IMG/VR virus record: IMGVR_UViG_3300034789_000823
Span: 1-33,967 of that record
Source of the DNA: a virus
Strand: one strand, 5' to 3'
Length of the DNA: 33,967 bases
Both the position numbers and the translations under genes were made by a program. Shown here piece after piece: positions 3,543 through 30,427 of this stretch (its first letter is position 1; each line of letters begins with the position of its first letter). The notes beneath the pieces are model-generated. The model searched no databases and had not been told where the DNA came from. It was given only the letters and a program-made list of their open reading frames with translations.

Positions 3543-3569
3543 TTCCTATGGGATTATTGTCCTCTTGTT

Positions 3570-3577
3570 TATTTATG
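3570..3577 (-). promoter_or_regulatory. Late promoter candidate upstream of gp8
   Basis: The minus strand reads CATAAATA, one base off the T4 late consensus TATAAATA. It sits 28 bases before the gp8 ATG inside the only sizeable gap in this part of the cluster. T4-like phages use such an element with gp55 sigma factor and the gp45 clamp. A start about six bases downstream would leave a leader of roughly 20 bases ending in AGGAA before the ATG. Confidence 0.6.
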
Positions 3578-3581
3578 AAGG

Positions 3582-7766: not shown

Positions 7767-8066
7767 TCAGACGATAACGTTAATAGTTCCATTCATTTGA
7801 GTATGAATGGTGCATTGATAATAAAGAGTATTGGGAGCATCCATTGGTACAGTCCAATACAGAACTCCAGTTCCACTACCAGACTGACCAGCAGTATATG
7901 CTGTTCCGCTCAAACCTTGACTAGACTGGATTCTGAATGGGTGTGATCCACCTTGAACACTGTTATCAAATGCGTAGGTCGCACCACGCTGAACATATAT
8001 TGTAGGATCGTTAGTAGCACCACTGAATCCAGGTCCATTAAATGTGTAATGGTTTGATCCATCAGC
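7767..8066 (-). other. C-terminal cupredoxin-like domain (408-aa protein)
   Basis: The domain has the typical order: PTIYVQRGATYAFDN strand, GGSHPFRIQSS with H351, a GTLTW-like strand (GVLYWTVP), then YYQCTIHTQMNGTINVIV. Ligands would be H351, C394, H397 and M400. Spacing C-x2-H-x2-M is the same as in the neighbouring 1392-aa protein. The domain closes the protein, so it would lie at the distal end if the N-terminus attaches to the baseplate. Confidence 0.7.
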
Positions 8067-9013: not shown

Positions 9014-9021
9014 TATTTATA
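9014..9021 (-). promoter_or_regulatory. Late promoter, perfect TATAAATA, overlapping the giant gene's stop codon
   Basis: The minus strand reads CCTATAAATAAC, an exact match to the T4 late consensus. The TAA in the middle is the stop codon of the 7136-codon gene. The next ATG (8993) is 20 bases past the element, fitting a short leader for the 408-aa fibre gene. Confidence 0.75.
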
Positions 9022-12000
9022 GGATCTCTGGATCAACAATTTCTTCTCCATACAGACTGAGGTCTGGAGCAGTCCAATCATCGGGGACTGTGCTGTCAAC
9101 TTGTACTCTAGGAGCAACATAACCACTTCCCTGACTCTGAAGTGTAACACCAGCAACACCAACTAATGCGCGGATGTTACCATCAAAACCAGAGATAGAA
9201 TCTAGTCTTACTGTAGGTCTGCTACTATATCCAGATCCACCAGAAGTAACATTAACTCTTGTGATATAACCGCTAGTTAATTGTGTATTAGCGATAGCAC
9301 CTTGACCGAAGACAGAACCAAGATAATCGAAAGTGATTAGAGAGTTTGAAGATTCAATAACCGCAACTTCACGATTTTCGGTTTCACCCTCAATCTCCAG
9401 AAGATCATTGACCTCAACAGGAGGAACAACAACTTCGGCATCAACGTCTGCCTCAGAACCGACGTAGGAGAATGCTACAAATGTAGATCCAACACGAGGA
9501 ATTTCGGAGAAGATGATTCTAGAACCAACAATCTCAAAACCAATTCCAGGTTCCTGAAGAACACCATTGATAGAAACAATAATATTATTTTCTGGACGAA
9601 TTGTGGAAGATTGTACACCATCCGTGAGCGTAAGTGAATAGAAGGAATCATTACGCTTGAGGTTGAATGATTGACGTAAAGAATCAAATTCAAACGAGAT
9701 ATCATCAAGTTGTCTCAGTTTACCAACATAGAATCCAGTGAAAGATGCACCAAGATCGGGGGGTTCAGTAAACTGAATTTTGTCAGAGAAAGCGGTGTAA
9801 GAATTCGCTGCACCAGGAGGTTGCAGAACACCATTGACAAAGATGAGCATATGACCCTCAGGATCGGGAAGATATTGAGTTCCATTGCTAAAGGAAAGAT
9901 CGAATAGAGTTTGAGTTCCATCGAAACCTCTGAAGAATCTCTTCACGCGAGCTTTCATCACTTTTCTCTGAAGAACAACAGATCTGTGATCTGCAGGACC
10001 GCGAAGACCATCTCTGTCAGCAAATGTGCCATTAACCTCTGTGATATAAAGTCTCTTATTGAGACCTGCAGGTCTGATATCTTGAATCCTTGCAGATGCT
10101 GCGCCAGCGTAATCAACCTTAGTTACGATAGTTCCAAGACCTTCCAGAACCGCACCACCAAGACCATAGTCACCAATCACATCACCGTTAGCAAAACTGC
10201 CTTCAACTTGAACGATGTAGATGTAACCATTATCAACATCAACTTCAGAGATAATTGCGTAAATGTTATTTTGCTTATTACCATTTACAACTTTGTGTAG
10301 ACGGTTACCCACGGTAAAGGTTCGGAACTGCTCGTTAGAGTTGTAATTGAATCCCAGTCTTGTGTGACCAGAGGAAGCAATTTTTTCACCAACTTGAAGA
10401 TCAAGACCCGCGTATTTACTAACAATTAAATATTCTTCAGAAGATGCTGGATAAACAACAGAGTTAACTTCTAAGGATCCTGTTAGAGTTTCAGTATCGA
10501 CAGTTAGTACACCGCCTTGATTATTAGTGACCGCTGCTTCATTTCTTGAGAACGTTACAGGATCTGCAATCGCTCCACTAGTAAATCCTTTAAAGGGAAT
10601 ATCAGCGATAAAGGAACCTTTAAGATCAATTATATGTAAACGATCTTCGATCGTAGAGTTAATATCAATTGTTGCTGATGTAGCAGGTGCATCTTCAATA
10701 ACTTCAATTGCATCATTAATAGCAAATGTTCCTGCGGTAACTTCAACATCCAGATAAGTAAAGTTTGTATCGCTAGTTAATCCATAGATAACACCCGTTA
10801 CAGCAGCATCTGCAGTCTTTTTAATTGTTTGGTTAACAAGGAAAGGTCCGTTTTGAATACTAGCATTTGTGAGACGGAATCTCTTATACACCTTGACAAC
10901 TTTTCCTTGATTTTCAACGATTGATTGAACTTCAGCACGAGAGTTAGAACCAAGAGCGTAGATAAAGTCAGAACCAATAACTTCGCCACTAATACCAACG
11001 GGAATATCACGTTCACCATATTTTTTAGTAAGAGTTGGAATACCATTAACAGTTGTAATAGTAGTGTAGTAAGCACTAGATCTTAACTGCTCAGTAATAA
11101 TATTCAAACTCTTCTTGGCAACACCAAAGATAGAATTTGGATTATAATTTGATGAAATACCAGCATCATAGAACTTAGTAAATCCTGCATTGGGAGAAGG
11201 ATTGGCAAGTTGATTATTTAATGCCTGACGAATATATTCTTCAATCAAACTAATTGAATATTTCTTGATATTGAATTCTGCATTCGCATAGAATTCTTCA
11301 CCAGATTGAGAAACATAAGTTCCAAGTGCTGAAGATCCTAACTTAGCACCCCAAACAAGGAATCCAGGATTACCAGCGAGATCAAGAATGTACAACGATC
11401 CTGTATTGCTAAGGAAAGAATTTCCAGGACCATCATCATCGTAACGAGAAGTGCCGTAAAGTTTTGAATTAGAAATTGCTACAGCCCAACCAAACTGATC
11501 AGCGGATGATTCATCTCCAGAAGTGAAGACCGTTTGATTAGTTCCATCCAGATCATAAAGAACGACAGTACCAGAAGAACTAGGTTTACCAGATGCTTCA
11601 TCAGATCTTGCACCAACTGCAAGTTTACCATTACCAATCGCAACAGAGGAACCGAAATAATCACTACTTCCAACTGTTGATGGAGGAGTTAGACTTATCT
11701 CACCAGAACCATCAATATTGTAGACCCAAGCAGCACCTTTATTACTGGTCCCACCAGGATCAGCATAGGAAGAACTGACTAAGATCTTACCCTCACCAAC
11801 TGCAACCTGTCTACCGAAGTTTGCATTTGCGTATGCACTGCTATCAGTAATTTTAACTTCACCTGTGCCATCTAAGTTATAGACATACACAGAACCAGAT
11901 CCACTCTGACTATTGTCATCATCATAAGGGGAACCAACAACCAGTTTATTGTTTCCTACTGCAACAGAGTAACCAAAGTAATCATAATCTGCTTCATCCG

Positions 12001-15000
12001 AAGCAGTAATTTCTTGAATAAAATCACCAGTATTTACATTATATACCTGAACTGCACCTCTTCGTGTTCCATTGCCAGATCCAGGATCTCCATAATTACC
12101 AACAAATAACTTATCTCCACCAATCGCTATCGAGTAACCAAAGTAATCGTTAGTTACAACATTGTTGGGTTTGATAACTCTGGTTTCATTTGTTCCATCT
12201 AAATCGTAGATGTATACTGCACCAGCATTACTTCTAGAACTGTGGTTTTCATATGGTGCCGCAATCGCAAGTTTATTATCACCAACTGCCACTCTAAAAC
12301 CAAAGTAAGCACCAGATTGAACTACAGATGGTAGAATCTTAATCTGAGTATTAACGGGATCACTTTCAGAAGAAACATATGCAGAACCTGAAGAGTTCTG
12401 ACCACTAATATCATCATAAGGGGCACCGACGAGTACCTTTCCGTCACCTACTGCGACTGAGTATCCGTAATAAGAATTGGATGCGATAGTTGGATTATTT
12501 GGTCCATCAAAACCATTAAGTTCAATAGAATTAGAGGAAGCAGTAAAGGACTGATTACCATTTAAATCCTTCATAATAATTCTAGTTCTGAAAGTGCTGA
12601 AACCAAATCCAAATCTAACGGTGAGGTATACACGATACCAACCACCACCAAACGGAATTGCACCATGATCAAGGACAGTAACAGATCCATTAGATTGATT
12701 GAAGAGTGAACCAATAGATCCTGTGACAAGATCAACATCAAAGAATACCTGATTAGATCCATCAAGTAATGTGTTAAATCTAATAGAATTATACTGTGCT
12801 GCCTTAATAAAGATAGATGTGCTATATGTTTGAGTATCTAAATCAGCACCAGTATCAAATGTAGTGGTTCCGCTATCAAATCTAGTTCCCGTTCCGTCAA
12901 ATGTAGTGTAAGAAGACAGAGAGTAATCTCTGTGCAATTCCTTAGTTCCAGCTACATCAGTAGTAATACCAAACTTATCTGCAGTATTTGTATTATCTGG
13001 AGCAAGACCAACATTAGGAGTTACTAGAGCTCTAGTTGCAACCCATCCAGAATTATACTGTTCAGGATTTGTCCACAAATTAAGACTTGTTACTGAACCC
13101 TCAATCAAAGAGGAAATGCCAGCAGCACTCTCAATAGTTCTTACAGTAGAAATATTATTATACCAAGGATATGTGTTACTAGGAACAAGATCAACAACAC
13201 ATGTAGAAAGTGTGAGTGAACCAGTCAGAGTATCACCAGTAACAACATTGCCACCCGTAAACGTGCTGGTAACTAGGAGATTACCTTGCGCGTAAAGTAC
13301 AGTCGCTGTATATCCATTACCAGTGGTGACGGTTTCACCTTCTGAGAAATTACCAACTGTTGAAGAAACTGTAAGACCATAAGAATCGGTAGACTCAGTA
13401 GTATCAGTAGTCATCAAATCATATTGAATATTATTCAATAATTCATCGACAAACGTATCATACTGCCAACTTCCAGAACCAAACTGAGTTCCAATAATAG
13501 AAGCAAGTTCTGCTTTGTAATATGCTTTGTTAAATCCAATATTCTTATATCCAGATCTTGCTTCATTACCACCAGGTGTGATTGCTCTTAGAGCAATATT
13601 TACAAGTTCGATCATGTCACAAGAAACTTTAACCTCATCGGTCATAGTCAAAGCGTCACGATAAGCACTGCCATTATTGTTACCAACGCCAGCATATACC
13701 GCTTGATATTGATTACCAGTTACTCCCTCATTATTGTTGTAAAGAAGATTTAATATTGCAAACTCAGCAAGTTCCTTAATTTGCTCAACTGCAAAGTTAA
13801 AGATGTAAAGTTCGTCAGTAACAGTGATGACTTTCTTCTGAGCATCTAAGAATAATTCAAGTTCAGCAATAGTGCTGTTGTTTCCACCAGTTTGAAGATC
13901 AGAAATAATTGCGATAATGATATTCTTAATATAAGAATCATAATCTCCAGAGTTCAGAGTAAATGCTTGATAAGTATTGCCTCCAACTGTATATGTGTTC
14001 TCGGCATCAATTCTACCAACAATCTCTTCTGCAATATAATCTCTATTGAAATAAAGTCTATCTGCAGCAATATTATAATCTTCGTCAGTAGGTGCAATGA
14101 TATCATTAATGGTCTGGAAAAGTGTGTCGATTGCAGACTCAACGTTTGCACAACCACCCGCTGTGCTTACTGCGTTTGCAGCAGCACTTACAAATGTATG
14201 AACATATTGATCAGATGCAGAAGACGCACCAACATTTACTGTGATTGTTGTTGCAGTAGTAGCAATAATCTCAAGTTTTGCGCCAGATGCAGGATCAGTT
14301 GTTCTTGGATATGTGTGGTTTGTAGCATTACTATTCTGTGAGCAGGTAAACGTCAGAGAATTATCTGCAATTGTAATACGGCGTCCTAAAGCAAGACCAT
14401 GTGTTCCAATAGTAAGAACCAGAAGACCATTTGCAGGATCATAAGTTGCACCTGTAGGTGTGAAATTAACTACAGCATCATTAGTAATACCCCAATCACC
14501 AGTAATAATGTCATCTGTATTATCATAAGTTAAATCTCCATTAATTGCTTGCTTAGCATATACTGCAAGACGATCATGAGCATAGACAGACTGCCAAACT
14601 TGCTTACGAATATGTTGAAGTTCGCCATTTGTATTCACATAGAACTTAGAAACAGTAACAGTATTTGCGTTGCCACCAAATTCTAAATCATTTGCAACTT
14701 CTGCAAGAATCAATGCCATATCAGTCTTACAACGGAGTGTACCGTCACCACTACCATTTTGATTTCTAGGCATCTCTGTTGCAAGATCGGGATATCTAGT
14801 GATCAGATCATATGCAGCTTTATCTACAATAACAGCAGAGTTTGCACGAATCAGATTTGCAGCATCACGATATCTGTAACGAGCGTCAGTATCAATTTGA
14901 TGTGTGTAGATATAATCATCCGTTCCATTATGAGCAGTTGCAGTCAAAGGAACTTCATAGAATGCATCAATTCTACCACCAATAAATTCACGAGCAGGTT

Positions 15001-18000
15001 CAACCTTAGTAACAACACCAAGGTGATCTCTATTTGTATCATTAGTAGTGGTTCCGCTACCTTCTTCAATAGTGTCAATAATAATGTCCATGAGGTTATT
15101 GACAGCAGACTTAACATCAGCACAATCACCAGATGTGAAATTAGACTTCTTGATAGCACCAGTGGTTGCACTGATAAATTGGTGAGTATATTGTGCTCCG
15201 CTTGGAGATGCACCAACATTCACAGTAAATGTATTAGTATCCGCTGCGCTGATTCTCAGAACTTGATTATATGCGATTGGATCAGAAGGTCTTGGATGTA
15301 CAATAGGACACTTGTAACCATCACTAGAACACTTAAATGTCAAAGACAGTGGTTCAAAGTATACAAAGTCACTGGTTGTCAATCCATGACCATTTGATGT
15401 AATAACCATATCGCCAGTAGCAGCATTATAGTTAATAGCAGTTGGAGTATACGCTGTTAAGGTTGCATAATTTGATTCAGTGATAGTTGTATCAGTAATC
15501 TGTCTCAATCCATGAGATCCCTGAACAGTAATCAGAGCATTGTTAATAATGCTGTCAAGCAAAGTCTTTGTTGTATTGTGTGCTGTAATCAACGCCGCTT
15601 CTTCACCAATAAATGATGTTAGAGAAGTAATAGGTAGAGTTGTTCTATCAACAAATGTATTTGCTTGATCCCATGTATGACTGTTACTTGCATTTCTAAT
15701 ATCTTGTGCAACTGCACTCATTGCATTCTTAAGAGGTGCTAAGAATGCCGCACTAGAAGCACCTTGAGTAAACTGATAAACTGCAACTTTACCACTACTG
15801 TTAACATTATTAGTATCTGCATTATGAGCACCAACAACAAATCTATTAGATCCAACATCCATGCTTTGAGGATCTGAACCCCAATAATCGAAGTTTGCTG
15901 CTTCCGAAAGAGGAAGTTTAATTTCATTCGTTCCGTCTAAATCATAGGAATAAATGATACCTGTTCCACTTCTACCATCTTCTTCTGCATATCTTGCAGC
16001 AACAAAGATCTTATCTATACCAACTGCAACAGCAGAACCAAACTGATCACCCGTAGCAGCGTCAGATGGAGTAATAATGATTTCATTAGTGCCATCTAAG
16101 TTATAGACGTAAACTTTACCAGATGAACCTCCAGAAGGATCATCATACTGAGCACCAACAACAACTCTATTACTTCCGATAGCGATTGAACGACCGAACT
16201 GATCATTATTGGTTCCATCAGATGCAGTAAGTTTTACCTGACCTGTACCATCAAGGTTGAAGACATATGCTGATCCAGAAGAACTTCCGTTATCATCATC
16301 GTAAGGAGCACCAACTGCAAGTTTACTATTGCCGATACCAATCGAATAACCAAAATAATCACTAGTTGCTCGATCAGAAGCAGTAACTTTTACTTGATTA
16401 GTTCCATCAGTATCAAAGACATAAACTGCACCACGATAATTATCATCACCATATGCACCAACCGCAACTTTATTATCTCCACATGCTGTAGACCAACCGA
16501 AATATTCGTATGATTGAGCAGGTGAAGGTGTCAATGTAACTTGATTAGTTCCATCTTCATCAAAGATATATGCTCTACCAGATTGTGAACCATTGGGATC
16601 GTCATAAGGAGCACCAACAACAATCTTACTACTACCAGCAGCAACAGAATGACCAAATCTATCATTTGTTCCAGATGCTGAAGGAGCAAAGACCTTAATT
16701 TCATTTTCACCATTGAGATCAGTGATATAAATTGCACCTCTGTTATCAAAACCACTATCATCAGCACCAAAGGAACCTGTTACGATTTTATTAGTTCCTA
16801 CTGCAACTGAATAACCATAATATGTGAAGGAATTATAATCTGATGCACGAACGATTGTAGGTTGATTGACAGTATCCAACTCGAATGGTAAAGAACTTGC
16901 TGTTCTATCTGCAACTTCTCTAGAAACGAAGTCCAAGTTAGATTCAATCAAATCTGCAGCATTGTAATACCTGTGAATTCTACCCTCATATCCTCTAGGA
17001 GAAGTTCCAACATTTACAGTGACTGTAGTTCCAGTTACTGCGGTTACATTTAGCGTAGCACCAAATGCAGGATCGGTTGAACGAGGATATGTGTGATTTG
17101 TAGCAAAATTATCTCTATCACAAGTGAATGTTAAGGAGTTTGCTGCAATGGTAAGTGTAGAAGAAGTTGTGTAACTATGAGATCCGATTGTAAGTACAAG
17201 ATTTCCTGTAGCAGAATCATAAGTTACATCAGTTGGAGTTTTATTATCACCATCAATAGTAACTGCATTTGTAGAGGCACTTACGAACTGGTGAATTCCA
17301 CCATAAAGTTTGCTGGACTCAGTGATAGCATCATTATTAAAGTATTCATAATTTGTAAATGCTTCAGCACCCGACCAATCTTGAGTATGAGTATCACCAT
17401 AAGCACCATCGAAGTGAAGAAGTAAAACTGTATCAGTATCTCCTTGATGCATCTTAGGAGCAGTGAATGTTGATGTATAACGAGCAACAGTAGAAACCCT
17501 GAGATCGTCAACATAACCAGCCATTACCTGTGATGTAGTGTCATATGCTGCACCAACAGTAATAGGTTTGGTAGATCCATAGTTGTTGCTATCAGTATAT
17601 GTGCTTCCTTCTTGTGTTCCGTTCAAGAACATCTTAGTAGAAGTTCCAGTTCTAGAAATAGCAACGTGATACCAAGTATTAACTGCAAGAGCACTAGCAC
17701 CAGTAATTCGATTATTACCATTTACATAATAGTTCAGACCTGTTCCAGAGACATAGAGGTATGGAGAAAGTTCAGTTCCAGTAGTTCTAAAGTCGATGAT
17801 ACCCTGAGATCCAGAAACACTGTTCAGTTTAATCCAGCACTCAATCGTGAAATCACCTGTACCAAAACCAAATTCAGTAGAAGTTGGGATTGTGATATAT
17901 TCATCGATAGGAACTGCACCAACGTTGATTGTAATTGTTGTTGCAGATACTGCTGAGATATTGCGTGCAGAACCAGCAGCAGGATCAGTGGAGCGAGGAT

Positions 18001-24000: not shown

Positions 24001-27000
24001 TATAACCAGTAGTATCGTCAGTTCTACTATATGCAACATTTAGTTCACCAAAGATATCAATTACACTTCTATTCACCATCTGAATACTATTTCCAGTAGG
24101 TGCTGCATAACGATAATTCCAAATTAAAGAACCATCGGTATCAAACTTACCAACCCAGAAACCATCTTTAGTTGTATTATTAGATTTAAGTCTAGTGGTA
24201 GAAACGACATATAATTCGTTGAATTCATCTACAACCAGACTAGTATCTAAGAATGAATAAATGCTATTACCAATTTCTTTAGTCCAATCAACTGTAATAA
24301 TAGAAGTACCAATAGTTGCTTTACCCAGAGAAATTTTAATATCGGTAGCACTAGAATTATCCGCAACTTCCATGATGAAGTATACAGAATCACCAAGAAC
24401 AACTAAATCAGTAAGTTTTTCAGATCCAGATGCAGTTGCAATCTTCCTCTTAGCTGCAAAACCACCAGTGCTATCAATACTAGCGATAAAAGCATCAAAA
24501 GGATTTGAAGAGTTGGTATTAGTGTAACCACCAATAATGAAACGAGAATCAGAATATGCCTTAATAGAAGTTACATAGTCTGCTCTAGTAGAACCAGAAA
24601 TACCCGCATATCCTTTTTGGAAATCTAAAGTTGCACTAAGACCATCTTCTGATTGAGTATATTTTGCAAGGAAAACATCTGGGTTGTACACCGCAAGAAT
24701 CGATGCATTGGGTTTATTCTCACCAACTAACCAAATAGCATCTCCTCTAACATCCATACGGATGAATTCTGTGTATGTTTCACCAACTTGACTTTCTAAA
24801 CTCTTTTCCCACTCTTTAATACCAAGTTCGGAGAATTTAGCAACAAATGCAACTTCATTGTTGTTTGCATCGAGAGTTTTACCACAAACATACAGTTCTT
24901 TATCACTATTGATATAAGAATCATTAATTTTTACATAATTTTGATTTGAAAGCAGAGAAACATAATAATCTGCTTTTTTAAAGATTTGAGGATGACTAAT
25001 AATAACTCTGGGATCTTTAGTATATGAAGAACCAGAATTTACAATGTTAACTTGTTCAATCGATCCGACTTGACTTACAACTGCTTGTAAAGAAGCAGAG
25101 TTACCATCACCATCAATTTTGATTGTAGGGGGAATTTCATCATCATAACCAGAACCTGTCTGATTGATGATAATTTCTTCAATACCTTTTAATTGTCTTA
25201 CTACAAACTGTTTATTGGTAGACTCCATGACAGGAGTGTAATCAACAAAAATTTCATCTCCAGTAACAATATTGTGAGGTGAAGAAGTTGATAAAACACC
25301 GTAGTAAGTATCTTCAATGTTTTCAAATGTATATGAAGATACTGTCTCACCAGTAACTTTAGAAACTCTAGCAGAAACACCCGTTCCATCAGTTCCAGCA
25401 TTATCAAAGATAATGATATCATCAACCTGATAACTTGTTCCTGGATCTTCAATTGTAAATCCAGTTACAGCAGCATCTTCAAACTTAGTGATCGTTTCAA
25501 CTTCAATATCAACCTTAGAGTCAAGTCTTACTGAAGGGAAGTAATCAAAGAGTTGTAAAGGAGACTCCTCAAAAATTTGATCGGGATCATCAATTTCATC
25601 TTGACTGATAATACCATCGCGATTTTCATCCTCAACTTCAAAAAGGAGAACATCACCATTTTCAAGTGTCAGAGCGTTAGTAGACGCATTAGGAGCACGT
25701 TCAACATCAATATCTACGTTCTCATAAGGATCTCTAAATCTAACAACACCAGATGGAATATTTTGCTGAATTGCATTTTCATCAAGATTCCATATATCAA
25801 CAACCGAGTTATAGCTTGGTCCAATTACATATGGGAAAACAGGATTACCATCTTCTGTAGCGTCAACAGTAACAAAATAGCAATATCTGCCCTCAGCAAA
25901 CTCTGGAGTTTTACAGAAACGTCCATTATATTGATCTAAATCACCAGAACCAAAAATGTACTCATAGTCTTCTACAAATTTGCCAGCGATTTCATCATTT
26001 AAAGAAGGACCAGCAGTTCTCTTAGGATATGGATTAGTAATTTCATCATAAACTAATTCAGTCTTCAGAGAGTAAGAACTATTCAATCTAGCAATAGAAG
26101 AAGACTGATTAGTTGGGTCAGAATAACCATAAGGACCATAGATGGGATTACCATCATACGCCCAACCAATAATAGGTGAGTGATCTAATTGAGTCTCTTG
26201 TTCTTTAATTTGAGAAAGATTATTTACAAATAAATTATCGCCAAGAATATATCTTAATCTTTGAGGATTGGATAAGTGTGCATATTCACCACCATACTGA
26301 TTATTAAGACCTGCAAATACAGAACCCTTTGCAGTATCAAATGTAGTGGTTTCTTGTAAGTTATAAGTCCACTGGAAAACATTTGCTGTGAATTTAGCAT
26401 CTTGACCAATAGAATTCAGGTTAATAATAGTAGTTCCCTGAATATAATTAATACCTCTGTTTAAAATTTCAATTCCAGTAACTCTACCAGCATTTTCACC
26501 ATCAGTATCAATTGTTGCACGAGCAACCGCACCAAAACCATCACCTTGAATTGTTACTTCAGGTGCAGTGGTATAACCTTGACCTGCAGAAATAATAGCG
26601 ATCGAAATAATACGACCGTTTTGAACAATTGCTTGAGCAACTGCACCTGCACCAGAACTCAAAGTAACATCTGGAGTAGATGTGTAAGATGCACCACCAC
26701 TAGTAACACCAATAGATTTAATAGGACCACGAACAGATGCAGTTGCTGTAGCACCTGTACCGCCGCCACCAACAATAGTGATAGAGGGTTGAGATGTATA
26801 TCCAGTTCCTCCAGAATTCATCAAGACCCGAGAAACTACACCTTTGGTTACAATAGCAGTTGCTGCTGCACCAGAACCACCTCCACCAACAATAGAAACG
26901 AGAGGAGAAGAAGTATATCCAGATCCACCATCGTCAACTACAATTTCAGTAATAGATCCATCAACAACAACACTTGCAGATGCACCACTACCACCACCAT

Positions 27001-30000
27001 TAGCAATAGTAATTACTGGTGGTGAAGCAGCATCATAGTCCTGTCCAGCATTATCAATACTAATACTAGTAACAGGTCCAAAAGTTTTCTTAACTGTAGA
27101 TTTGTAAGACCAAATTGATACACCATTAACCCAAGTTCCAATAGAACCAGGATTAATCAAGTCTTTTGTCGAAATAGTATTTGGAAGCAGAGGGAATCTG
27201 TTCAGTTTTCTCTGGTTGCCAGGAAGCAATGCAGAACCTGGAAAAGGACCAATGTTGTAGTTGGGAATACCAGTAGACGCAACATAAACATAATTGTCGT
27301 TAAAGAACGAGTTTTGAATATTGGTTGTATAAGGTCCAATACTATTTGCAATGGCAGTATTCTCAGACTTACCTTTGTTAAGGTCAACTGAAACAAGGAT
27401 ATTGCCCTGAGGTGTAACTTCAGCAGGTTGTGGTAATTGATACTGGAATACAGTTGCACTATCTCTAGAAGTTACTAAAAATGATCCATTATAAAGAATG
27501 GGATTTGCACCGTAGACAGTAACTTGATCACCAACCAAAAGACCATGAGGATTTTCACATGTAACTGTAGCAAATTGATTATTAACACCACCATAGGTAA
27601 TACTGGTGACTGTAACTAATTTTTTAACATTATACAACCAAGTAGTCAATTCAGGTTTAATTGAAGTACCACCTAATTTGGAAACAGTCAGTTTATCACC
27701 AGCAAGGTAATATGAACCAGTATCAGTTAGAGTTGTTTGTTGAGCATCAACAATACCAACAATATTCATTACTACTTCTTGAGAAGTTCCTTTGTTGACA
27801 TATACAACTAAGTTTGATGTAACTTCTGTAGCAGAATCCCAATCTTCAACAACATCGTTTACAGAACGAGTACACTCAATAAACTGGTTAAGAGATTTTT
27901 CTTTATATTGAACAACTTCTGCTCCACCAATAATAAATTCACCGTTTCTTTCTGGCCAACCAATTGTGGAGTCAACAGTAATAATACTGTTATCTGTGCC
28001 GAGAGGTTCCGCTAATTTTGTCTTATAAGGAACTGTAAATACACCTTGAATAGTTTCTTCTGAAAGAACTAATTCAAAAATTTCTAAATTGGATGTTTTA
28101 ATGGAAATATAATTTTCAATCAAAGCACTTGCTGCTTTTACATTAGTATCAGCAATACTTTCTTCCTGTGTTAACAGACCATCTTTAATATTTCTAGGAT
28201 CACCACTAACTAAAGTTGCACGCAAAATAGTATCAATAGACCAAGTTGCCGCAGAAGGTTTTGTGATCTGATCTTTTGGATATGAAATAGTGACTTCTTC
28301 ACCATAAAGAAGTTTAAACAAGTATGCAACGCTGTAAGAAGTACCTTTTGTAGAGTAAAAATCTTTTACAGACTTAATTGCTGTACGAACGTCAATCTTC
28401 GTATAGTCTAATTCAGGAACATCTGGCAAGAATTGTTCCGTATATTTGTCAAGAAGTCTCTTAACAAAGAGAGCATCAAGACATTTTACTTGAGAGTCTA
28501 CGGAAGCTGTTGCTGCAGTAGTATTATTAGAGAAAATTGCATTACCACTTTCAGTATATCCAGTGATTCCACTTGCCGCTCTAGCGCACCCATTAAATGC
28601 TGCTTTCTTATACCCTTTACCACTTTTATTTACTTTAAAACCAGTAACTTCATTCAGACCTGGTTCAACAGATGCTCTTGCTTGAGGGGGACTTTGAATT
28701 ACAACAGTAGGAGGATTTGCAGAAGAATATCCAGAACCAAAATTGCTGATGTTAATATCAGTAATCTTACCATTAAAAATAGCAGCAGATGCGGTTGCAC
28801 CTGTTCCATTTCCTGCAGGATCAACAATATAGACGGAAGGAATATCCTCATATCCGCTACCACCATCTAATAGTTCCACACTGACAACACGTCCATCAGC
28901 GTCAACCAAAGTTTCTAAGACTTGAGCGCCAACTGGATCAATAATAGCAACTCTAGGTGTAGAAGTATAACCTTGTCCAGCATTTAAGATAGTAATACTA
29001 GTAACCTTTCCGTCAGTTATATTCGCTCTCAGTGCCGCTCTAATGCCGTCTGCACCCAAAGGTTCATCAATGTATACCAGAGGAGCAGTTGTATACCCCT
29101 GACCGCCATCTGTGACAGGAATAGTTCCGCTTAATGATCCACTAATAATAGTTGCAGAACCAAGTTTAGCGCCACCTGGTTGTTTGAAAGTGATTCTAGG
29201 ATTAAAAGTATATCCACTACCCGAACCAATGATCTCAACATCAGTAACAGAACCGTTAGTTACAGTTGCCTTTAGAGTTGCAGGTGTAGAACCTGCGGCA
29301 GTAGGTGACTGAATTTCTACAGTTGGAGGGTTGGTATCACTATAACCCTTACCACCATCAAGAAGTACAGCGTTTTTAATTCCGTTAACTAAAGCAGTTG
29401 CGGATGCACCTGCGCCAGTTTCTCCCTGAATACTGACTTGAGGCGGATATTCATATCTGTATGCCGCACCAGTTTTATTAATCGAGATGTCAGAAAGTTG
29501 TCCATCGTTATTAACACGGGCATATCCAAGAGCACCCGCGCCAAAACTAGGAATAGGTGCCTCAATTGAATACAGAGACAGGAATCTACCATTTAAAGGA
29601 GGAACTTCAAAAATGAAAATATCACCATCAATAAAATAGTCTACTCTAGGGATAAGCAGTTTATTGTCATAAACCGCAAGAACATATTCATCAACAATAG
29701 GACTATAAGATTCACCATTACGAGTGATCTTAAATTCCGTTACGCCCTCACCAAAAGAACCTGAAATATTATCGAGTGCAAGAATATTACTATCAATGAA
29801 ACCACCAAGATAGAAAATACTGGTTTCAGATACATCATCACCCGTTTCCTTGGTTCTAGGAGCAGTTGTGAAGACAATATCAGTACCATCAACTGTATAA
29901 TCAAGATTAGGAATTAAGACCTTACCATAGGTCTCTACAATTAAATGCTGTGCAGAAGGTGCAGGAATTGGTGTAGATTGAGAAGTAAGAGGGAATCTAA

Positions 30001-30427
30001 CAGTAGTTCCATCATACTCATTAATGAGTTGAGCAAGGTCAGTCCACTTTAATTTTACCTGATCATAGGAAATACCAGGACTCAGAGAAATAGCAGGAGC
30101 AGAGGTTGTATTTTCATAGTAAATTACCTCATCACCAATAAGGATACTACCATCATTCGATAAAAAACTATCAACAGACTCAACAACGATCGTATCATCA
30201 GTATCACCAACTGCTTCTACAATTTTGGTGGCACCATCAAGAATATCAACTTCCAATTTGTCAATATCAAGATATGACAAGAAGTTATTAATAATGTTCT
30301 GTCCTAAACCCGTTTTTTCTTGAGATCTATAATAATACTCAATAAACTTGTTAAACAGAGGATATTCCGTCCTCAAAAAGTCGGGAGACTGAGAGGGGAT
30401 AGACTGGGAGACCTTATTAATATTCAT
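9017..30427 (-). CDS. Giant multidomain baseplate/tail protein in the gp7 position
   Basis: A single open frame encodes 7136 aa, roughly 0.75 MDa. The N-terminus has YPLFNKFIEYYY and FLSYLDIDK near residues 22-57. FLPDVPELDYTK, IKSVKDFYSTKGTSYSVAYL and LLYGEEVTISYPKD follow near 655-720. Together these resemble one helical N-terminal domain of phage baseplate proteins, split by about 590 residues of GxGY repeats. Later come more GxGY blocks (about 1117-1333, 1649-1805, 3005-3239, 7056-7112) and a YHYH-type domain (1410-1540). These are followed by an EF-hand loop (1600-1611), a PQQ/SBBP-like propeller (about 1818-2196) and LamG-like folds (about 2217-2420, 4056-4330). The second half holds four copies of a 100-aa module, two seven-bladed FG-GAP propellers (about 4520-4886, 5975-6350) and NGVLQ-PG repeats near the C-terminus. 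It starts one base after gp6. T4 gp7 is 1032 aa; equivalence is inferred from position only. It probably scaffolds the wedge and bears surface-binding domains. Confidence 0.85.
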   Translation of the reverse strand: MNINKVSQSIPSQSPDFLRTEYPLFNKFIEYYYRSQEKTGLGQNIINNFLSYLDIDKLEVDILDGATKIVEAVGDTDDTIVVESVDSFLSNDGSILIGDEVIYYENTTSAPAISLSPGISYDQVKLKWTDLAQLINEYDGTTVRFPLTSQSTPIPAPSAQHLIVETYGKVLIPNLDYTVDGTDIVFTTAPRTKETGDDVSETSIFYLGGFIDSNILALDNISGSFGEGVTEFKITRNGESYSPIVDEYVLAVYDNKLLIPRVDYFIDGDIFIFEVPPLNGRFLSLYSIEAPIPSFGAGALGYARVNNDGQLSDISINKTGAAYRYEYPPQVSIQGETGAGASATALVNGIKNAVLLDGGKGYSDTNPPTVEIQSPTAAGSTPATLKATVTNGSVTDVEIIGSGSGYTFNPRITFKQPGGAKLGSATIISGSLSGTIPVTDGGQGYTTAPLVYIDEPLGADGIRAALRANITDGKVTSITILNAGQGYTSTPRVAIIDPVGAQVLETLVDADGRVVSVELLDGGSGYEDIPSVYIVDPAGNGTGATASAAIFNGKITDINISNFGSGYSSANPPTVVIQSPPQARASVEPGLNEVTGFKVNKSGKGYKKAAFNGCARAASGITGYTESGNAIFSNNTTAATASVDSQVKCLDALFVKRLLDKYTEQFLPDVPELDYTKIDVRTAIKSVKDFYSTKGTSYSVAYLFKLLYGEEVTISYPKDQITKPSAATWSIDTILRATLVSGDPRNIKDGLLTQEESIADTNVKAASALIENYISIKTSNLEIFELVLSEETIQGVFTVPYKTKLAEPLGTDNSIITVDSTIGWPERNGEFIIGGAEVVQYKEKSLNQFIECTRSVNDVVEDWDSATEVTSNLVVYVNKGTSQEVVMNIVGIVDAQQTTLTDTGSYYLAGDKLTVSKLGGTSIKPELTTWLYNVKKLVTVTSITYGGVNNQFATVTCENPHGLLVGDQVTVYGANPILYNGSFLVTSRDSATVFQYQLPQPAEVTPQGNILVSVDLNKGKSENTAIANSIGPYTTNIQNSFFNDNYVYVASTGIPNYNIGPFPGSALLPGNQRKLNRFPLLPNTISTKDLINPGSIGTWVNGVSIWSYKSTVKKTFGPVTSISIDNAGQDYDAASPPVITIANGGGSGASASVVVDGSITEIVVDDGGSGYTSSPLVSIVGGGGSGAAATAIVTKGVVSRVLMNSGGTGYTSQPSITIVGGGGTGATATASVRGPIKSIGVTSGGASYTSTPDVTLSSGAGAVAQAIVQNGRIISIAIISAGQGYTTAPEVTIQGDGFGAVARATIDTDGENAGRVTGIEILNRGINYIQGTTIINLNSIGQDAKFTANVFQWTYNLQETTTFDTAKGSVFAGLNNQYGGEYAHLSNPQRLRYILGDNLFVNNLSQIKEQETQLDHSPIIGWAYDGNPIYGPYGYSDPTNQSSSIARLNSSYSLKTELVYDEITNPYPKRTAGPSLNDEIAGKFVEDYEYIFGSGDLDQYNGRFCKTPEFAEGRYCYFVTVDATEDGNPVFPYVIGPSYNSVVDIWNLDENAIQQNIPSGVVRFRDPYENVDIDVERAPNASTNALTLENGDVLLFEVEDENRDGIISQDEIDDPDQIFEESPLQLFDYFPSVRLDSKVDIEVETITKFEDAAVTGFTIEDPGTSYQVDDIIIFDNAGTDGTGVSARVSKVTGETVSSYTFENIEDTYYGVLSTSSPHNIVTGDEIFVDYTPVMESTNKQFVVRQLKGIEEIIINQTGSGYDDEIPPTIKIDGDGNSASLQAVVSQVGSIEQVNIVNSGSSYTKDPRVIISHPQIFKKADYYVSLLSNQNYVKINDSYINSDKELYVCGKTLDANNNEVAFVAKFSELGIKEWEKSLESQVGETYTEFIRMDVRGDAIWLVGENKPNASILAVYNPDVFLAKYTQSEDGLSATLDFQKGYAGISGSTRADYVTSIKAYSDSRFIIGGYTNTNSSNPFDAFIASIDSTGGFAAKRKIATASGSEKLTDLVVLGDSVYFIMEVADNSSATDIKISLGKATIGTSIITVDWTKEIGNSIYSFLDTSLVVDEFNELYVVSTTRLKSNNTTKDGFWVGKFDTDGSLIWNYRYAAPTGNSIQMVNRSVIDIFGELNVAYSRTDDTTGYKTVDTVKIDYDGKMVKQTNNAFTINNIEGLSVNALAVDNSGDVYPMGQTSWNRNEFIFPFSSGETTDITAHYTPTFLSTGESVRFLAESALIQGYQTASPSSWENAAIKMPAAQLGTKLAGDWTCEFMVYKNGSEYNTFSQTQVTLMAIGDATVTTGGLWLYYDLSSGRLELVVTNNVTALNSAGSALQSTQTTMFADNTWQFIGLKKEGDVFTGYVNGIQVFTGTITNTSLGSKDLFFGNIPGRSGTLGQFRSNEQFQGYLDNIRLKNRAITPTAPSDAGALPTSGGFGLNITWNDTAFFTNYLSRYDYIDYIGWVLKTDKNSDSTRLGSKTGNTNTNVAFTRTAVTPVTGVGLTVTNIGLALGESGLQNLDYDDATINMFQDSESITQTTDIWSSRTATVPSPGSQKLSVTASVKDRYYMKVTNTIKIDNVQELTINQSFNFKVGSKLKLSTAAGAFVNSGYILSTDTVNNKVFVAVNNNAWSNDLNTGRLSTEQFSEASTYGIVGPIPTDINEIKDYTFTTIQNTTPGTFDIALNDFNLNRTPAASTGQGNLDDFAVFRAYDATDTDNYRIRIDSIAGGSTFIPGSVVTIASNQITFNAEFTTAQITGLTGVLTATIITTLDKVLQCTAVTNTNEVYIITSDRHYLSDGENIFVDGNPSQQIGSDVFDEYDGSFTVDRVVSSREFIYKLPAVAQTDPASSASSVSIFAKSPVLKMYYGHQYLFDLSHSSMVGTNLSFSKDNLFKLEYSFNSIERVGTPGVTGEGQPTPTVKLKVDRDIVTNISYYFDPSRLGSDSPIASRSYLDIVDSPYLGTFRVSSTAGETITTGPITMKFPLINEPEGVATTSRAKYSTSSKKAVSAIADIRIVNSGGFYSKIPVITGIQSTRQIERVQIKEPGTEYAVGVYRSVPIAGDGEGGLVEITVADGTTDEGVNIPGQVQKVSVTSPGKGYTTASIDIVSVPGILGPGLTGSGAELEVVIPPSGSGAVVFAQGNNIGKIKKLKNNNFGYDYSHDYTLRPEITFPINAQLTSTNILDSITVTDPGSGYSQAPAVVVTGGGGSGAIAEATIKNGRIDQIIVKDPGAGYSSAPTIALKSSFNYVVNVDLGLLQFAFPHGIQNGAEVTLNSIDTGEGIEYPLAAGALGRLNGNTTYYAISGTANSLEDDQLKLAITQANAELGDAIGFVNAGTGRQQVLTESFGAAATANVITSTFLEGELVYQGPSFDQATATGFVSTNSGWQVGPRIVKIVDYDGEFIEGQSITGVISKSSGVISDLNIAKGVLEIGSITKTTGQFIDDVGKPSEIIQKIQDSYYYQDFSYAVQSSVSIDDWKEILIKNVHPASFKVFGELNLNEYSFIPNKETDFELTKSVELARDAIVPNIQSFALAEPIYSEFNNTEVLFRQKRLTSSENILTSVVQRLDDVSNLFDGERTSFPMTVDGNPVIANANQILINLNGVAQNPGSSFEIQGDSIVFAEPPQPPASVKYVNITINQIQTKRLTFTNVSGIFPVINNTLVGIVSGARLTVTKVEGDDIIGFVTEGTFQSGELCQVSATGFAANLNTITDIANNGLFEFNETITNLTGDVARVEQINLETGQETPIAKLRYTIGAATTTIETINATNPTDTPVDAGTFVLGETYQIGSEIILINGISNGPESTTIQVSRAQLGTASISHQEDTPFYGTDISITNALTLSKTTGTYQSTVGLFDIQLNDTIIGAKSGVVAQVTSTSAYQDPSTQAFIEQVNISDGSSFFGLLFNRRTSTEYPNVILDDISKSQVNIVDFTDTTLAFNSDFPNNEIISNNILSYDNVTGTFQDNEIIRNYRFNYSSNTGEFAAGDEITVRKLTFTDKQGDGFFREGDVIRTRDTKAEIIGFSQARNTIYLGKIGRCQRNGADYHQVNFVKSTINTYNKKYGSGALALSPGTSAHTFVSGVADAITVTGGGSGPFTAATGTTYDPLTGLMVIEIGTHSLTTSDSVTIANDGVVFTCAQDNNTSNKAYPRSTDPAAGSARNISAVSATTITINVGAVPIDEYITIPTSTEFGFGTGDFTIECWIKLNSVSGSQGIIDFRTTGTELSPYLYVSGTGLNYYVNGNNRITGASALAVNTWYHVAISRTGTSTKMFLNGTQEGSTYTDSNNYGSTKPITVGAAYDTTSQVMAGYVDDLRVSTVARYTSTFTAPKMHQGDTDTVLLLHFDGAYGDTHTQDWSGAEAFTNYEYFNNDAITESSKLYGGIHQFVSASTNAVTIDGDNKTPTDVTYDSATGNLVLTIGSHSYTTSSTLTIAANSLTFTCDRDNFATNHTYPRSTDPAFGATLNVTAVTGTTVTVNVGTSPRGYEGRIHRYYNAADLIESNLDFVSREVADRTASSLPFELDTVNQPTIVRASDYNSFTYYGYSVAVGTNKIVTGSFGADDSGFDNRGAIYITDLNGENEIKVFAPSASGTNDRFGHSVAAGSSKIVVGAPYDDPNGSQSGRAYIFDEDGTNQVTLTPSPAQSYEYFGWSTACGDNKVAVGAYGDDNYRGAVYVFDTDGTNQVKVTASDRATSDYFGYSIGIGNSKLAVGAPYDDDNGSSSGSAYVFNLDGTGQVKLTASDGTNNDQFGRSIAIGSNRVVVGAQYDDPSGGSSGKVYVYNLDGTNEIIITPSDAATGDQFGSAVAVGIDKIFVAARYAEEDGRSGTGIIYSYDLDGTNEIKLPLSEAANFDYWGSDPQSMDVGSNRFVVGAHNADTNNVNSSGKVAVYQFTQGASSAAFLAPLKNAMSAVAQDIRNASNSHTWDQANTFVDRTTLPITSLTSFIGEEAALITAHNTTKTLLDSIINNALITVQGSHGLRQITDTTITESNYATLTAYTPTAINYNAATGDMVITSNGHGLTTSDFVYFEPLSLTFKCSSDGYKCPIVHPRPSDPIAYNQVLRISAADTNTFTVNVGASPSGAQYTHQFISATTGAIKKSNFTSGDCADVKSAVNNLMDIIIDTIEEGSGTTTNDTNRDHLGVVTKVEPAREFIGGRIDAFYEVPLTATAHNGTDDYIYTHQIDTDARYRYRDAANLIRANSAVIVDKAAYDLITRYPDLATEMPRNQNGSGDGTLRCKTDMALILAEVANDLEFGGNANTVTVSKFYVNTNGELQHIRKQVWQSVYAHDRLAVYAKQAINGDLTYDNTDDIITGDWGITNDAVVNFTPTGATYDPANGLLVLTIGTHGLALGRRITIADNSLTFTCSQNSNATNHTYPRTTDPASGAKLEIIATTATTITVNVGASSASDQYVHTFVSAAANAVSTAGGCANVESAIDTLFQTINDIIAPTDEDYNIAADRLYFNRDYIAEEIVGRIDAENTYTVGGNTYQAFTLNSGDYDSYIKNIIIAIISDLQTGGNNSTIAELELFLDAQKKVITVTDELYIFNFAVEQIKELAEFAILNLLYNNNEGVTGNQYQAVYAGVGNNNGSAYRDALTMTDEVKVSCDMIELVNIALRAITPGGNEARSGYKNIGFNKAYYKAELASIIGTQFGSGSWQYDTFVDELLNNIQYDLMTTDTTESTDSYGLTVSSTVGNFSEGETVTTGNGYTATVLYAQGNLLVTSTFTGGNVVTGDTLTGSLTLSTCVVDLVPSNTYPWYNNISTVRTIESAAGISSLIEGSVTSLNLWTNPEQYNSGWVATRALVTPNVGLAPDNTNTADKFGITTDVAGTKELHRDYSLSSYTTFDGTGTRFDSGTTTFDTGADLDTQTYSTSIFIKAAQYNSIRFNTLLDGSNQVFFDVDLVTGSIGSLFNQSNGSVTVLDHGAIPFGGGWYRVYLTVRFGFGFSTFRTRIIMKDLNGNQSFTASSNSIELNGFDGPNNPTIASNSYYGYSVAVGDGKVLVGAPYDDISGQNSSGSAYVSSESDPVNTQIKILPSVVQSGAYFGFRVAVGDNKLAIAAPYENHSSRSNAGAVYIYDLDGTNETRVIKPNNVVTNDYFGYSIAIGGDKLFVGNYGDPGSGNGTRRGAVQVYNVNTGDFIQEITASDEADYDYFGYSVAVGNNKLVVGSPYDDDNSQSGSGSVYVYNLDGTGEVKITDSSAYANANFGRQVAVGEGKILVSSSYADPGGTSNKGAAWVYNIDGSGEISLTPPSTVGSSDYFGSSVAIGNGKLAVGARSDEASGKPSSSGTVVLYDLDGTNQTVFTSGDESSADQFGWAVAISNSKLYGTSRYDDDGPGNSFLSNTGSLYILDLAGNPGFLVWGAKLGSSALGTYVSQSGEEFYANAEFNIKKYSISLIEEYIRQALNNQLANPSPNAGFTKFYDAGISSNYNPNSIFGVAKKSLNIITEQLRSSAYYTTITTVNGIPTLTKKYGERDIPVGISGEVIGSDFIYALGSNSRAEVQSIVENQGKVVKVYKRFRLTNASIQNGPFLVNQTIKKTADAAVTGVIYGLTSDTNFTYLDVEVTAGTFAINDAIEVIEDAPATSATIDINSTIEDRLHIIDLKGSFIADIPFKGFTSGAIADPVTFSRNEAAVTNNQGGVLTVDTETLTGSLEVNSVVYPASSEEYLIVSKYAGLDLQVGEKIASSGHTRLGFNYNSNEQFRTFTVGNRLHKVVNGNKQNNIYAIISEVDVDNGYIYIVQVEGSFANGDVIGDYGLGGAVLEGLGTIVTKVDYAGAASARIQDIRPAGLNKRLYITEVNGTFADRDGLRGPADHRSVVLQRKVMKARVKRFFRGFDGTQTLFDLSFSNGTQYLPDPEGHMLIFVNGVLQPPGAANSYTAFSDKIQFTEPPDLGASFTGFYVGKLRQLDDISFEFDSLRQSFNLKRNDSFYSLTLTDGVQSSTIRPENNIIVSINGVLQEPGIGFEIVGSRIIFSEIPRVGSTFVAFSYVGSEADVDAEVVVPPVEVNDLLEIEGETENREVAVIESSNSLITFDYLGSVFGQGAIANTQLTSGYITRVNVTSGGSGYSSRPTVRLDSISGFDGNIRALVGVAGVTLQSQGSGYVAPRVQVDSTVPDDWTAPDLSLYGEEIVDPEIL
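9440..9960 (-). other. C-terminal NGVLQ-PG repeats of the giant protein
   Basis: Two close repeats encode a FVNGVLQPPG ... IQFTEPPDLGASF unit and a SINGVLQEPGIGF ... IIFSEIPRVGSTF unit. A third (NLNGVAQNPGSSF ... VFAEPP) lies further upstream at about 19550-19670. This is a short beta motif common in T4-like fibre proteins. It is followed by two last GxGY units before the stop. Confidence 0.65.
11370..12505 (-). other. Seven-bladed FG-GAP propeller 2 in the giant protein
   Basis: Residues about 5975-6350 again hold seven blades: YYGYSVAVG, YFGFRVAVG, YFGYSIAIG, YFGYSVAVG, NFGRQVAVG, YFGSSVAIG and QFGWAVAIS. Turns such as GAPYDD, GSPYDDD and GARSDE follow, with YxxDLDGTN/G strands. The flanks (NLWTNPEQYNSGW about 300 aa before, FLVWGAKLGS after) look like one carbohydrate-binding-like jelly roll interrupted by the propeller. 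Confidence 0.8.
14168..14472 (-). repeat. Repeated ~100-aa module, copy D
   Basis: Residues about 5319-5420: TYDPANGLLVLTIGTHGLAL, LTFTCSQN, TYPRTTDPASG, TTITVNVGAS and VHTFVSAAANAV. It is followed by GGCANVESAIDTLF, which parallels GDCADVKSAVNNLM after copy C, so the helical segment is duplicated together with the module. Confidence 0.75.
15155..15465 (-). repeat. Repeated ~100-aa module, copy C
   Basis: Residues about 4988-5091: NYNAATGDMVITSNGHGLTT, LTFKCSSD, HPRPSDPIAY, TFTVNVGASP and THQFISATTGAI. It is the most divergent copy (HPRPSDP instead of YPRSTDP). Confidence 0.7.
15770..16850 (-). other. Seven-bladed FG-GAP (integrin-like) propeller 1 in the giant protein
   Basis: Residues about 4520-4886 hold seven blades of about 52 aa. 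Blade starts are YYGYSVAVG, RFGHSVAAG, YFGWSTACG, YFGYSIGIG, QFGRSIAIG, QFGSAVAVG and YWGSDPQSMDVG. Most are followed by a GAPYDD-type turn, an S/G-x-xYVF/YVY strand and xLDGTNQxxxT/P. This is the FG-GAP_2 type of integrin-alpha-like propeller. The last blade is degenerate (no FG) and could be the closing one. Confidence 0.8.
17003..17294 (-). repeat. Repeated ~100-aa module, copy B
   Basis: Residues about 4378-4475: HQFVSASTNAVTI, TYDSATGNLVLTIGSHSYTT, LTFTCDRD, TYPRSTDPAFG and TTVTVNVGTSP. It directly precedes the helical YYNAADLIESN segment and the first FG-GAP propeller. Confidence 0.75.
17440..18268 (-). other. LamG-like domain 2 in the giant protein, split by an inserted module
   Basis: The first strand KYGSGALALSP is at residues about 4055-4065. 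The rest, DEYITIPTSTEFGFGTGDFT then IECWIK, NTWYHVAISRTGTSTKMFLN and GYVDDLRVSTVARY, starts near 4173. In ordinary phage LamG domains these two parts are adjacent (GSGSLALDG..YLxIP). About 105 residues of the repeated module lie between them here. Confidence 0.65.
17911..18218 (-). repeat. Repeated ~100-aa module, copy A (of 4)
   Basis: Residues about 4070-4172. The order is HTFVSGVADAITV, TYDPLTGLMVIEIGTHSLTT, VTIANDGVVFTC, YPRSTDPAAG and TTITINVG. Shared landmarks in all four copies are YDxxTGxxVxTIGxHxL, a C after the LTFTC-like strand, YPRxTDP and a closing NVGxSP. This copy lies inside LamG-like domain 2. Confidence 0.75.
20705..21415 (-). repeat. GxGY beta-repeat block 4 in the giant gene (5 units)
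   Basis: Residues about 3005-3239 contain SGGFYSKIP, PGTEYAVG, PGKGYTTAS, PGSGYSQAP and PGAGYSSAP. The last two units are joined by a GGGGSGA turn as in block 2. A smaller block of three units (PGTSYQ, TGSGYDDEIPP, SGSSYTKDP) lies at about 25010-25480, and two units (GGSGYSSRP, QGSGYVAP) lie near the C-terminus at about 9090-9260. Confidence 0.75.
23170..23780 (-). other. LamG/concanavalin-like domain 1 in the giant protein
   Basis: Residues about 2217-2420 include GDWTCEFMVYKNG, GLWLYYDLSSGRLELVV, NTWQFIGLKKEGDVFTGYVN and GYLDNIRLKNRAI. The strand order and the closing GYxDxIRL motif are typical of LamG-like jelly rolls, which often bind glycans in phage fibres. Confidence 0.65.
23840..24975 (-). 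other. PQQ/SBBP-like beta-propeller region of the giant protein
   Basis: Residues about 1818-2196 repeat a four-strand pattern of the type ELYVCGKT, AFVAKFSELGIKEWEKSL; RFIIGGYT, AFIASIDSTGGF; LYVVSTTR, FWVGKFDTDGSLIWNYRY; and VYPMGQTSW. The order of GxY strand, A-K-D-DG-x-W is characteristic of SBBP or PQQ-like propellers. The blade number is uncertain, about five or six. Confidence 0.55.
25595..25630 (-). other. Canonical EF-hand/dockerin-type calcium loop in the giant protein
   Basis: The 12 codons encode DENRDGIISQDE, residues 1600-1611. D1600, N1602, D1604, G1605, I1607 and E1611 fill loop positions 1, 3, 5, 6, 8 and 12 of a canonical EF-hand. The next residues (IDDPDQIFEES) are acidic and could start a helix. 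It lies between the YHYH-type domain and a GxGY block. Confidence 0.6.
25810..26200 (-). other. YHYH-type domain in the giant protein, degenerate signature
   Basis: Residues about 1410-1540 read H1416-SPIIGWAYDG, NPIYGPYGYSD, LDQYNGRFCKTPEFAEG and then Y1515-C-Y-F1518, followed by NPVFPYVIGPSY. The order matches the YHYH-type domain of the 1392-aa protein. The last motif is YCYF where the family name expects YHYH. Confidence 0.7.
26430..27080 (-). repeat. GxGY beta-repeat block 2 in the giant gene (6 units)
   Basis: Residues about 1117-1333 repeat AGQDYDAASPP, GGSGYTSSP, GGTGYTSQP, GGASYTSTP, AGQGYTTAP and RGINY, separated by GGGGSGA-type turns. It is the most regular block in the window and sits just before the YHYH-type domain. 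Confidence 0.8.
28580..29500 (-). repeat. GxGY beta-repeat block 1 in the giant gene (8 units)
   Basis: Residues about 309-616 contain eight units of the form GxGYtxxPxVxI followed by a Gly/Ala-rich turn and a GxVtxIxI strand. Examples are GKGYSDTNPP, GSGYTFNPR, GQGYTTAP, GQGYTSTP and GSGYEDIP. Units are about 32-45 aa. The block lies between two halves of what looks like one helical N-terminal domain. Confidence 0.8.

Follow-up and report, generated by a model that had tools for sequence, protein, structure and literature searches.

A 7136-residue protein in the gp7 slot of a marine T4-like baseplate cluster: a probable gp7 orthologue with a split core

Introduction

Two described gp7 proteins serve here for comparison. 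In T4 gp7 a helical domain occupies residues 643-689, domain V (766-861) lies between the segments that we call blocks B and C below, and domain VI spans 920-1012. In Vibrio phage XM1 one helix-turn-helix of the (gp6)2-gp7 core bundle comes from the orthologue, gp17, which holds the tail spikes via a loop inserted in domain I and via its C terminus (PMC10457771). For pelagimyophages and cyanomyophages gp7 has been declared absent, apparently replaced by VrlC (PMC7029224).

We describe a giant gene in the gp7 position of a virus sequence from IMG/VR. The stretch of DNA analysed, called the window in what follows, is an entire IMG/VR record, an uncultured metagenomic fragment of 33,967 bp. In the records for P-HM2, S-WAM1, Bellamy and S-SZBM1 the corresponding gene already bears the name gp7 or wedge initiator, and a gp7 also appears in a table of the DLP6 paper, so identifying the gene as gp7 is not wholly new. 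What the literature searched apparently does not describe is the split core and the size series presented below.

Locus and reading frame

Read along the minus strand, the window holds the end of a phrog_719 protein, then PAAR, gp25, gp6, the giant, a gp9/10-like connector, a YHYH protein, gp8 and a VrlC-like protein. By coordinate these are:

1..2010, minus strand: VrlC-like protein, truncated at the contig end (phrog_358; DUF4815); VrlC is annotated at the same place in S-SM1
2010..3542, minus strand: gp8 (phrog_438; Phage-Gp8)
3582..7760, minus strand: YHYH baseplate protein, 1,392 aa (phrog_708)
7767..8993, minus strand: gp9/10-like tail-fibre connector (phrog_677; T4_gp9_10_N)
9017..30427, minus strand: giant, probable gp7 orthologue, 7136 aa, predicted 764 kDa (reading frame, phrog_701, gp7 profiles)
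30429..32459, minus strand: gp6 (phrog_219, E 1e-226; Pfam Gp6-like helical domain)
32459..32878, minus strand: gp25 (PHROG and Pfam matches)
33063..33611, minus strand: PAAR-like tip protein (phrog_281)

The giant thus occupies the gp7 slot by gene position, following gp25 and gp6 and preceding gp8, with two genes between it and gp8. The initial annotation had put it between gp6 and gp8; gp6 does adjoin it, but gp8 is the third gene after it and not the next.

A glycine-rich repeat of ~40 aa (GSGY...P.V.I) is common to the giant (9017-30427), the YHYH protein (3582-7760) and gp8 (2010-3542), and it cross-links many PHROG families. Patterns of the form HPF/HPM...YYxCxxHxxM occur in the C-terminus of the gp9-like connector (7767-8150) and within the YHYH protein (3582-7760). 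They resemble cupredoxin copper-site motifs and would be candidates for such sites; searches of Pfam and PDB returned no match for them.

The giant frame starts with ATG and runs for 7136 aa to its stop codon with no internal stop. In 50 shuffles of the same bases the longest stop-free run was 156 codons, and codon-position GC (~0.48/0.44/0.21) is constant over the full length, confirming the single uninterrupted frame of the initial annotation. The phrog_701 model (6,136 positions) follows most of the giant, with gaps only at variable cassettes. A tandem-repeat search of the window DNA found none. A metagenomic origin might suggest that so long a frame is an assembly chimera, but the cultured isolate P-SSM7 encodes a 7,124-aa copy at this position, an open frame of between 6,000 and more than 6,900 aa is found in dozens of independent contigs, and one of them (L026) holds both propellers described below, in the same order and in an open frame. 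Since relatives carry the same open frame, a mis-join has a negligible probability and is ruled out for practical purposes.

Profile evidence for gp7

A Straboviridae gp7 hidden Markov model (HMM) was built from T4, RB43, CC2, phi-ST2 and 1.081.O, the last two being schizotequatroviruses. Among 2,367 ORFs of the window and other fetched regions it placed gp7-slot ORFs on top, with E 3.8e-5 for that of the window. The T4 block 737-766 falls on aa ~686-715 of the giant, and a second block (HMM positions 866-899) is found at aa ~3460-3600 in several giants, with the order kept.

A second profile, A2, was made from an alignment of 38 compact (700-950 aa) gp7-slot proteins from IMG/VR. Its best matches among all PDB sequences are gp7 proteins, from Klebsiella phage KP1 (9f4a, E 2.9e-10, two collinear blocks matching) and from T4 (5hx2, E 1.2e-6). 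Against the window giant it scores E 1.6e-56 overall, with 2.1e-9 for block A, 3.4e-25 for block B and 4.9e-18 for block C; A2 positions 5-62 correspond to aa 3-58, positions 64-191 to aa 656-798, and positions 503-721 to a segment ending at aa ~3517. A search of reversed decoys with A2 gave no match. In each of seven complete phage records the core blocks fall in one gene, that of the gp7 slot, and in T4 they fall in gene 7 only. The Pfam model PF23786 (Baseplate_wedge) picks block B in the window giant, and block C weakly.

Direct similarity between the giant and T4 is short, ~30 aa in block B plus the weaker block C. Block A has no match to T4 with its own profile and is linked through the collinear alignment in compact relatives. 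A PDB search with the giants' own N-terminal profile has gp7 as its top match, at a non-significant E of 0.11. With T4 gp7 as a tblastn query against phages, no cyanophage is among the 60 records listed of 1,452 matching; a distant match to Xanthomonas X1 at E 1 forms the bridge to compact gp7, and an IMG/VR search with X1 gp7 gave one partial relative. T4 gp7 domains V and VI (PF21427, PF21456) and the N-terminal domains found no match in the giant or its compact relatives, and are treated here as T4-group features outside the core that defines orthology.

A different reading is that gp7 is absent, with VrlC as its substitute, and that the giant, a structural or fibre protein of other descent, lies in the slot by chance. 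Absence is what PMC7029224 states, PMC3037559 lists gp7 only in the non-cyanophage core, and most records label the giant 'structural' or 'hypothetical'. Yet the T4-group and compact gp7 profiles both pick the slot gene and the core blocks are found nowhere else, while VrlC-like ORFs match A2 only weakly, outside blocks A, B and C, and genomes with the gp7-slot gene also have VrlC, downstream of gp8. We consider this reading very unlikely. The absence claim of PMC7029224 is contradicted for both phage groups, which have gp7 in its canonical place and a VrlC that does not contain the core.

With both profiles matching and the core blocks confined to the slot gene, the gp7 position and gp7 equivalence proposed at the outset hold up; far from failing to match gp7, the giant gives collinear core-block matches and is homologous to gp7 by profiles. 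The giant is very probably the cyanomyovirus orthologue of T4 gp7; its core blocks would lie in the wedge and its inserts outside.

Split core

The core segments and the sequence around them, all on the minus strand, are as follows:

30254..30418, minus strand: core block A (aa 4-58), putative N-terminal helix-turn-helix, counterpart of T4 gp7 helical domain 643-689 (profiles; helices predicted at low confidence)
28463..30253, minus strand: insert 1 (aa 59-655), beta-rich, with glycine-rich 'GSGY' repeats (block models and predicted structure)
28034..28462, minus strand: core block B (aa 656-798), motif DFYSTKGTSYSVAYLFKLLYGEEVTI, PF23786 (profiles and Pfam)
20228..28033, minus strand: insert 2 (aa 799-3400), between B and C at the site of T4 domain V; contains YHYH
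19937..20137, minus strand: core block C (aa 3431-3497), motif WKEILIKNVHPASFKVFGEL (profiles)
9020..19936, minus strand: C-terminal extension (aa 3498-7136)

Because the compact profile matches the giant in three collinear, separated blocks, its predicted gp7 core is, at the level of sequence, split in three, with ~600 residues inserted at the first site, ~2,680 at the second and a further ~3,640 behind the last block. From the T4 layout it follows that the giant starts at the T4 core, lacking the ~640 residues that precede it, and that its large inserts occupy the positions of a short T4 link (site 1), of domain V (site 2) and of domain VI (tail). The proposal that gp7 had been expanded about seven-fold must therefore be revised: only about 200-300 residues, the T4 helical core, are common to both proteins, in three separated blocks. 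The bulk of the giant is lineage-specific inserted sequence, in which none of the T4 domains I-IV, V and VI can be recognised.

The A-B, B-C and post-C gaps were measured with separate models for the three blocks, and the distances between blocks increase from compact to giant proteins. Among giants the values (A-B/B-C/tail) are 605/2,684/3,639 in the window, 606/2,682/3,627 in P-SSM7 and 604/2,683/2,679 in S-SM1. Intermediate values are found in P-HM2 (118/2,327/1,787) and S-PM2 (120/1,557/1,171), and compact ones in X1 (32/232/53), Cr30 (19/519/26), phiM19 (20/773/9) and DLP6 (10/302/770). Melnitz and HTVC008M have ~100 aa between A and B, and smaller relatives in general hold about 20-120 aa at the insert 1 site.

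In two of the compact gp7 proteins (L193:3983-6094 and L018:6737-8233) the sequence between B and C includes a segment similar to domain I of gp18, the tail sheath protein of T4, by Pfam (PF22639, E 2e-4 and 2.9e-6) and by Foldseek (match to 3fo8, probability 1.0, E 0.03).

An AlphaFold model of a compact relative of 704 aa (pLDDT 67) has gp7 chains as its three best Foldseek matches in PDB, with T4 5iv5 at E 2.1e-4 and probability 1.0; as TM-scores are low, we take this match as supportive only. For aa 1-767 of the window giant, insert 1 is predicted as confidently folded beta domains, while helices in blocks A and B have very low confidence (below 50), as expected if their partners and block C are missing from the fragment. 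A structure search with these 767 aa gave no meaningful PDB match and no gp7 fold, so the fragment model does not confirm the assignment. No kyanovirus baseplate structure was found.

Relatives, annotation and virion evidence

The first 800 aa of the giant match 485 phage records, nearly all of them Synechococcus and Prochlorococcus myoviruses. More than 400 further IMG/VR relatives match the central part of the gene; wherever this was examined, they have a single open frame of up to 20 kb. Giant slot proteins of isolates measure 6,064 aa in S-MbCM100, 6,180 in S-SM1, 6,198 in S-RIM14, 6,378 in S-RIM2, 6,395 in S-RIM8, 6,619 in S-SZBM1, 6,737 in S-WAM1, 6,932 in S-SSM4 and 7,124 in P-SSM7 (ADO99013). 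Shorter ones occur in P-HM2 (4,454 aa), Bellamy (4,067), S-RIM44 (3,328), S-H9-2 (3,224) and S-PM2 (3,048), and the smallest in HTVC008M (1,016), phiM19 (1007), Melnitz (896), Cr30 (767) and X1 (498). Across phages of proteobacteria, SAR11 and cyanobacteria (L015-L019, L106-L266) the proteins in the gp7 slot make up a size series that begins at 498 aa and extends beyond 7,000 aa. The size that the initial annotation found unusual for a phage is so in general, but 6,000-7,100 aa is normal within one large Kyanoviridae branch.

Two annotated genes call for correction. HTVC008M I899_gp055 (L008:9856-12906), annotated 'head closure Hc2', is a gp7 orthologue (A2 E 1.5e-84); its label probably stems from the shared glycine-rich repeats. 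S-MbCM100_076 (L002:13603-16632, phrog_719), annotated gp7, was rejected as a true gp7 because it has no gp7 core and shares only the glycine-rich repeats.

Relatives of the giant have been detected in particles. According to PMC9146016, S-SZBM1_208, a 'baseplate wedge initiator' of 6,619 aa, was found in purified particles with 71 peptides covering 13.5% of it; its gene directly follows gp6, and all three core blocks are present. PMC3037559 reports T4-GC 969, the annotation borne by the S-SM1 giant, as a detected virion structural protein, and PMC10665884 gives 91 peptides for the 1,937 aa slot protein of S-CREM2 (ORF122). Peptide positions along the proteins are not given in the texts read. 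In the relatives S-SM1 and S-SZBM1, giants of the phrog_701 family are virion proteins. Cleavage during assembly, with the gp7 core and the C-terminal half as separate virion proteins, would fit the size of the giant, the end of the core about half way (~aa 3,500) and the modular C-terminal half. No protease or cut site was identified, and such a polyprotein seems unlikely.

Inserted modules

Pfam content of the giant comprises Baseplate_wedge, YHYH, Laminin_G_3 and FG-GAP_2. The matches are patchy, and long stretches have none, so the description of structural domains throughout the protein was too broad. Modules and conserved segments outside the core are:

25859..26395, minus strand: YHYH domain PF14240 in insert 2 (aa 1345-1523), E 1.6e-32
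17480..17905, minus strand: Laminin_G_3 (LamG)/concanavalin-like domain (aa 4175-4316), common to most relatives
15818..16900, minus strand: FG-GAP array 1 (aa 4510-4870), seven repeats of ~52 aa, predicted seven-bladed propeller, rare cassette
11393..12550, minus strand: FG-GAP array 2 (aa 5960-6345), seven repeats of ~54 aa, rare cassette
9020..9880, minus strand: highly conserved C-terminal 287 aa (aa 6850-7136)

In most giants aa 1-4000 and 6400-7136 are collinear, with mean identities mostly of 50-90% and ~90% over aa 6900-7000. The FG-GAP arrays (aa ~4500-4900 and ~5950-6330), 43% identical to one another, are nearly private to the window giant. The independent contig L026 has both, at 79% and 56% identity, and five other contigs have one. 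Only 20 phage records match array 1, mainly from the S-MbCM6 and S-TIM5 groups; P-SSM7, S-SM1 and S-SSM4 have LamG with no FG-GAP match.

Discussion

In the arrangement that we propose, the giant would be the T4 gp7 counterpart and single-copy partner of two gp6 per baseplate wedge. Blocks A, B and C would fold back together with two gp6 helical domains, forming the wedge core bundle and the neighbouring core, and the inserts would loop out of the core and form the periphery of the baseplate. Six copies, a number assumed from T4, would amount to ~4.6 MDa of baseplate protein. With less certainty, LamG and the FG-GAP propellers may be displayed at the periphery, contacting the host envelope or anchoring fibres.

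A host-contact role for the inserted modules is plausible on sequence grounds, because the propellers are rare, variable cassettes and because of the YHYH, LamG and FG-GAP content. When S-PM2 and Synechococcus coevolved for 500 days, the gp7-slot gene of the phage, S-PM2d081, was among those in which mutations arose late (PMC9910659), a result weakly compatible with host contact of the inserts. As a tentative possibility, the gp7 chain took over the outer baseplate in marine T4-like phages: with the core threaded through a chain of 7,000 residues, the inserts would give six giant arms with exchangeable adhesin modules, and one wedge subunit would be both scaffold and host-contact array.

The inserts may instead be mainly architectural (armour, fibre sockets or stiffening), with other proteins, for instance VrlC or fibres of the YadA type, contacting the host. 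This reading leaves the gp7 identity untouched, differing only on the role of the inserts, and we give it somewhat less than an even chance. It agrees with the strong conservation of aa 1-4000 across relatives and with host-adaptation mutations lying mostly in other genes, for example that for the S-TIM4 YadA protein (PMC6224464) or, in S-PM2, those for gp8 and short fibres (PMC9910659). The main text on S-TIM4 does not mention ORF_101 among such mutations. The domain content, the rare and exchangeable propeller cassettes of the C-terminal half and the late S-PM2d081 mutations speak against a mainly architectural role.

If the giant is gp7, then cyano- and pelagimyophages, which rank with the most abundant marine viruses, do have the gp7 that they were supposed to lack, and conflicting annotations (gp7 on another gene, 'head closure', 'replaced by VrlC') are corrected. 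An attachment site is predicted for 4-5 MDa of unassigned baseplate mass, and the origin of a giant phage protein by insertion into a conserved wedge core becomes testable.

Comparison with known systems

T4 gp7 (1,032 aa, PDB 5iv5/5hx2) resembles the giant in blocks B and C, in block A by collinearity, and in the order gp6-gp7-gp8. It differs in having ~640 residues (domains I-IV) ahead of the core and no insert 1.

The compact proteins of X1, Cr30, Melnitz, phiM19 and HTVC008M (from phages of Xanthomonas for X1, Caulobacter for Cr30 and Pelagibacter for HTVC008M) agree with the giant in the order of blocks A, B and C and in operon position. Their inserts are of about 20-100 and 230-770 aa, compared with 605 and 2,684 in the giant, and they have little or no C-terminal extension.

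XM1 gp17 (242 aa) is about 30-fold smaller than the giant and may, by analogy, be built alike, with a core helix-turn-helix and loops bearing peripheral attachments.

Closest are the Kyanoviridae giants of phrog_701 (T4-GC 969, 643 and 402), which occupy the same slot after gp25 and gp6, have the same three gp7 blocks with the same insert sites and sizes, and are collinear with the window giant over aa 1-4000 and the last 700 aa. The window giant differs in its two FG-GAP propellers, which nearly all sampled phrog_701 relatives lack at those places, and at 7,136 aa is slightly longer than the longest isolate copy found (P-SSM7, 7,124 aa). It belongs to an already known giant gp7 family of cyanophages.
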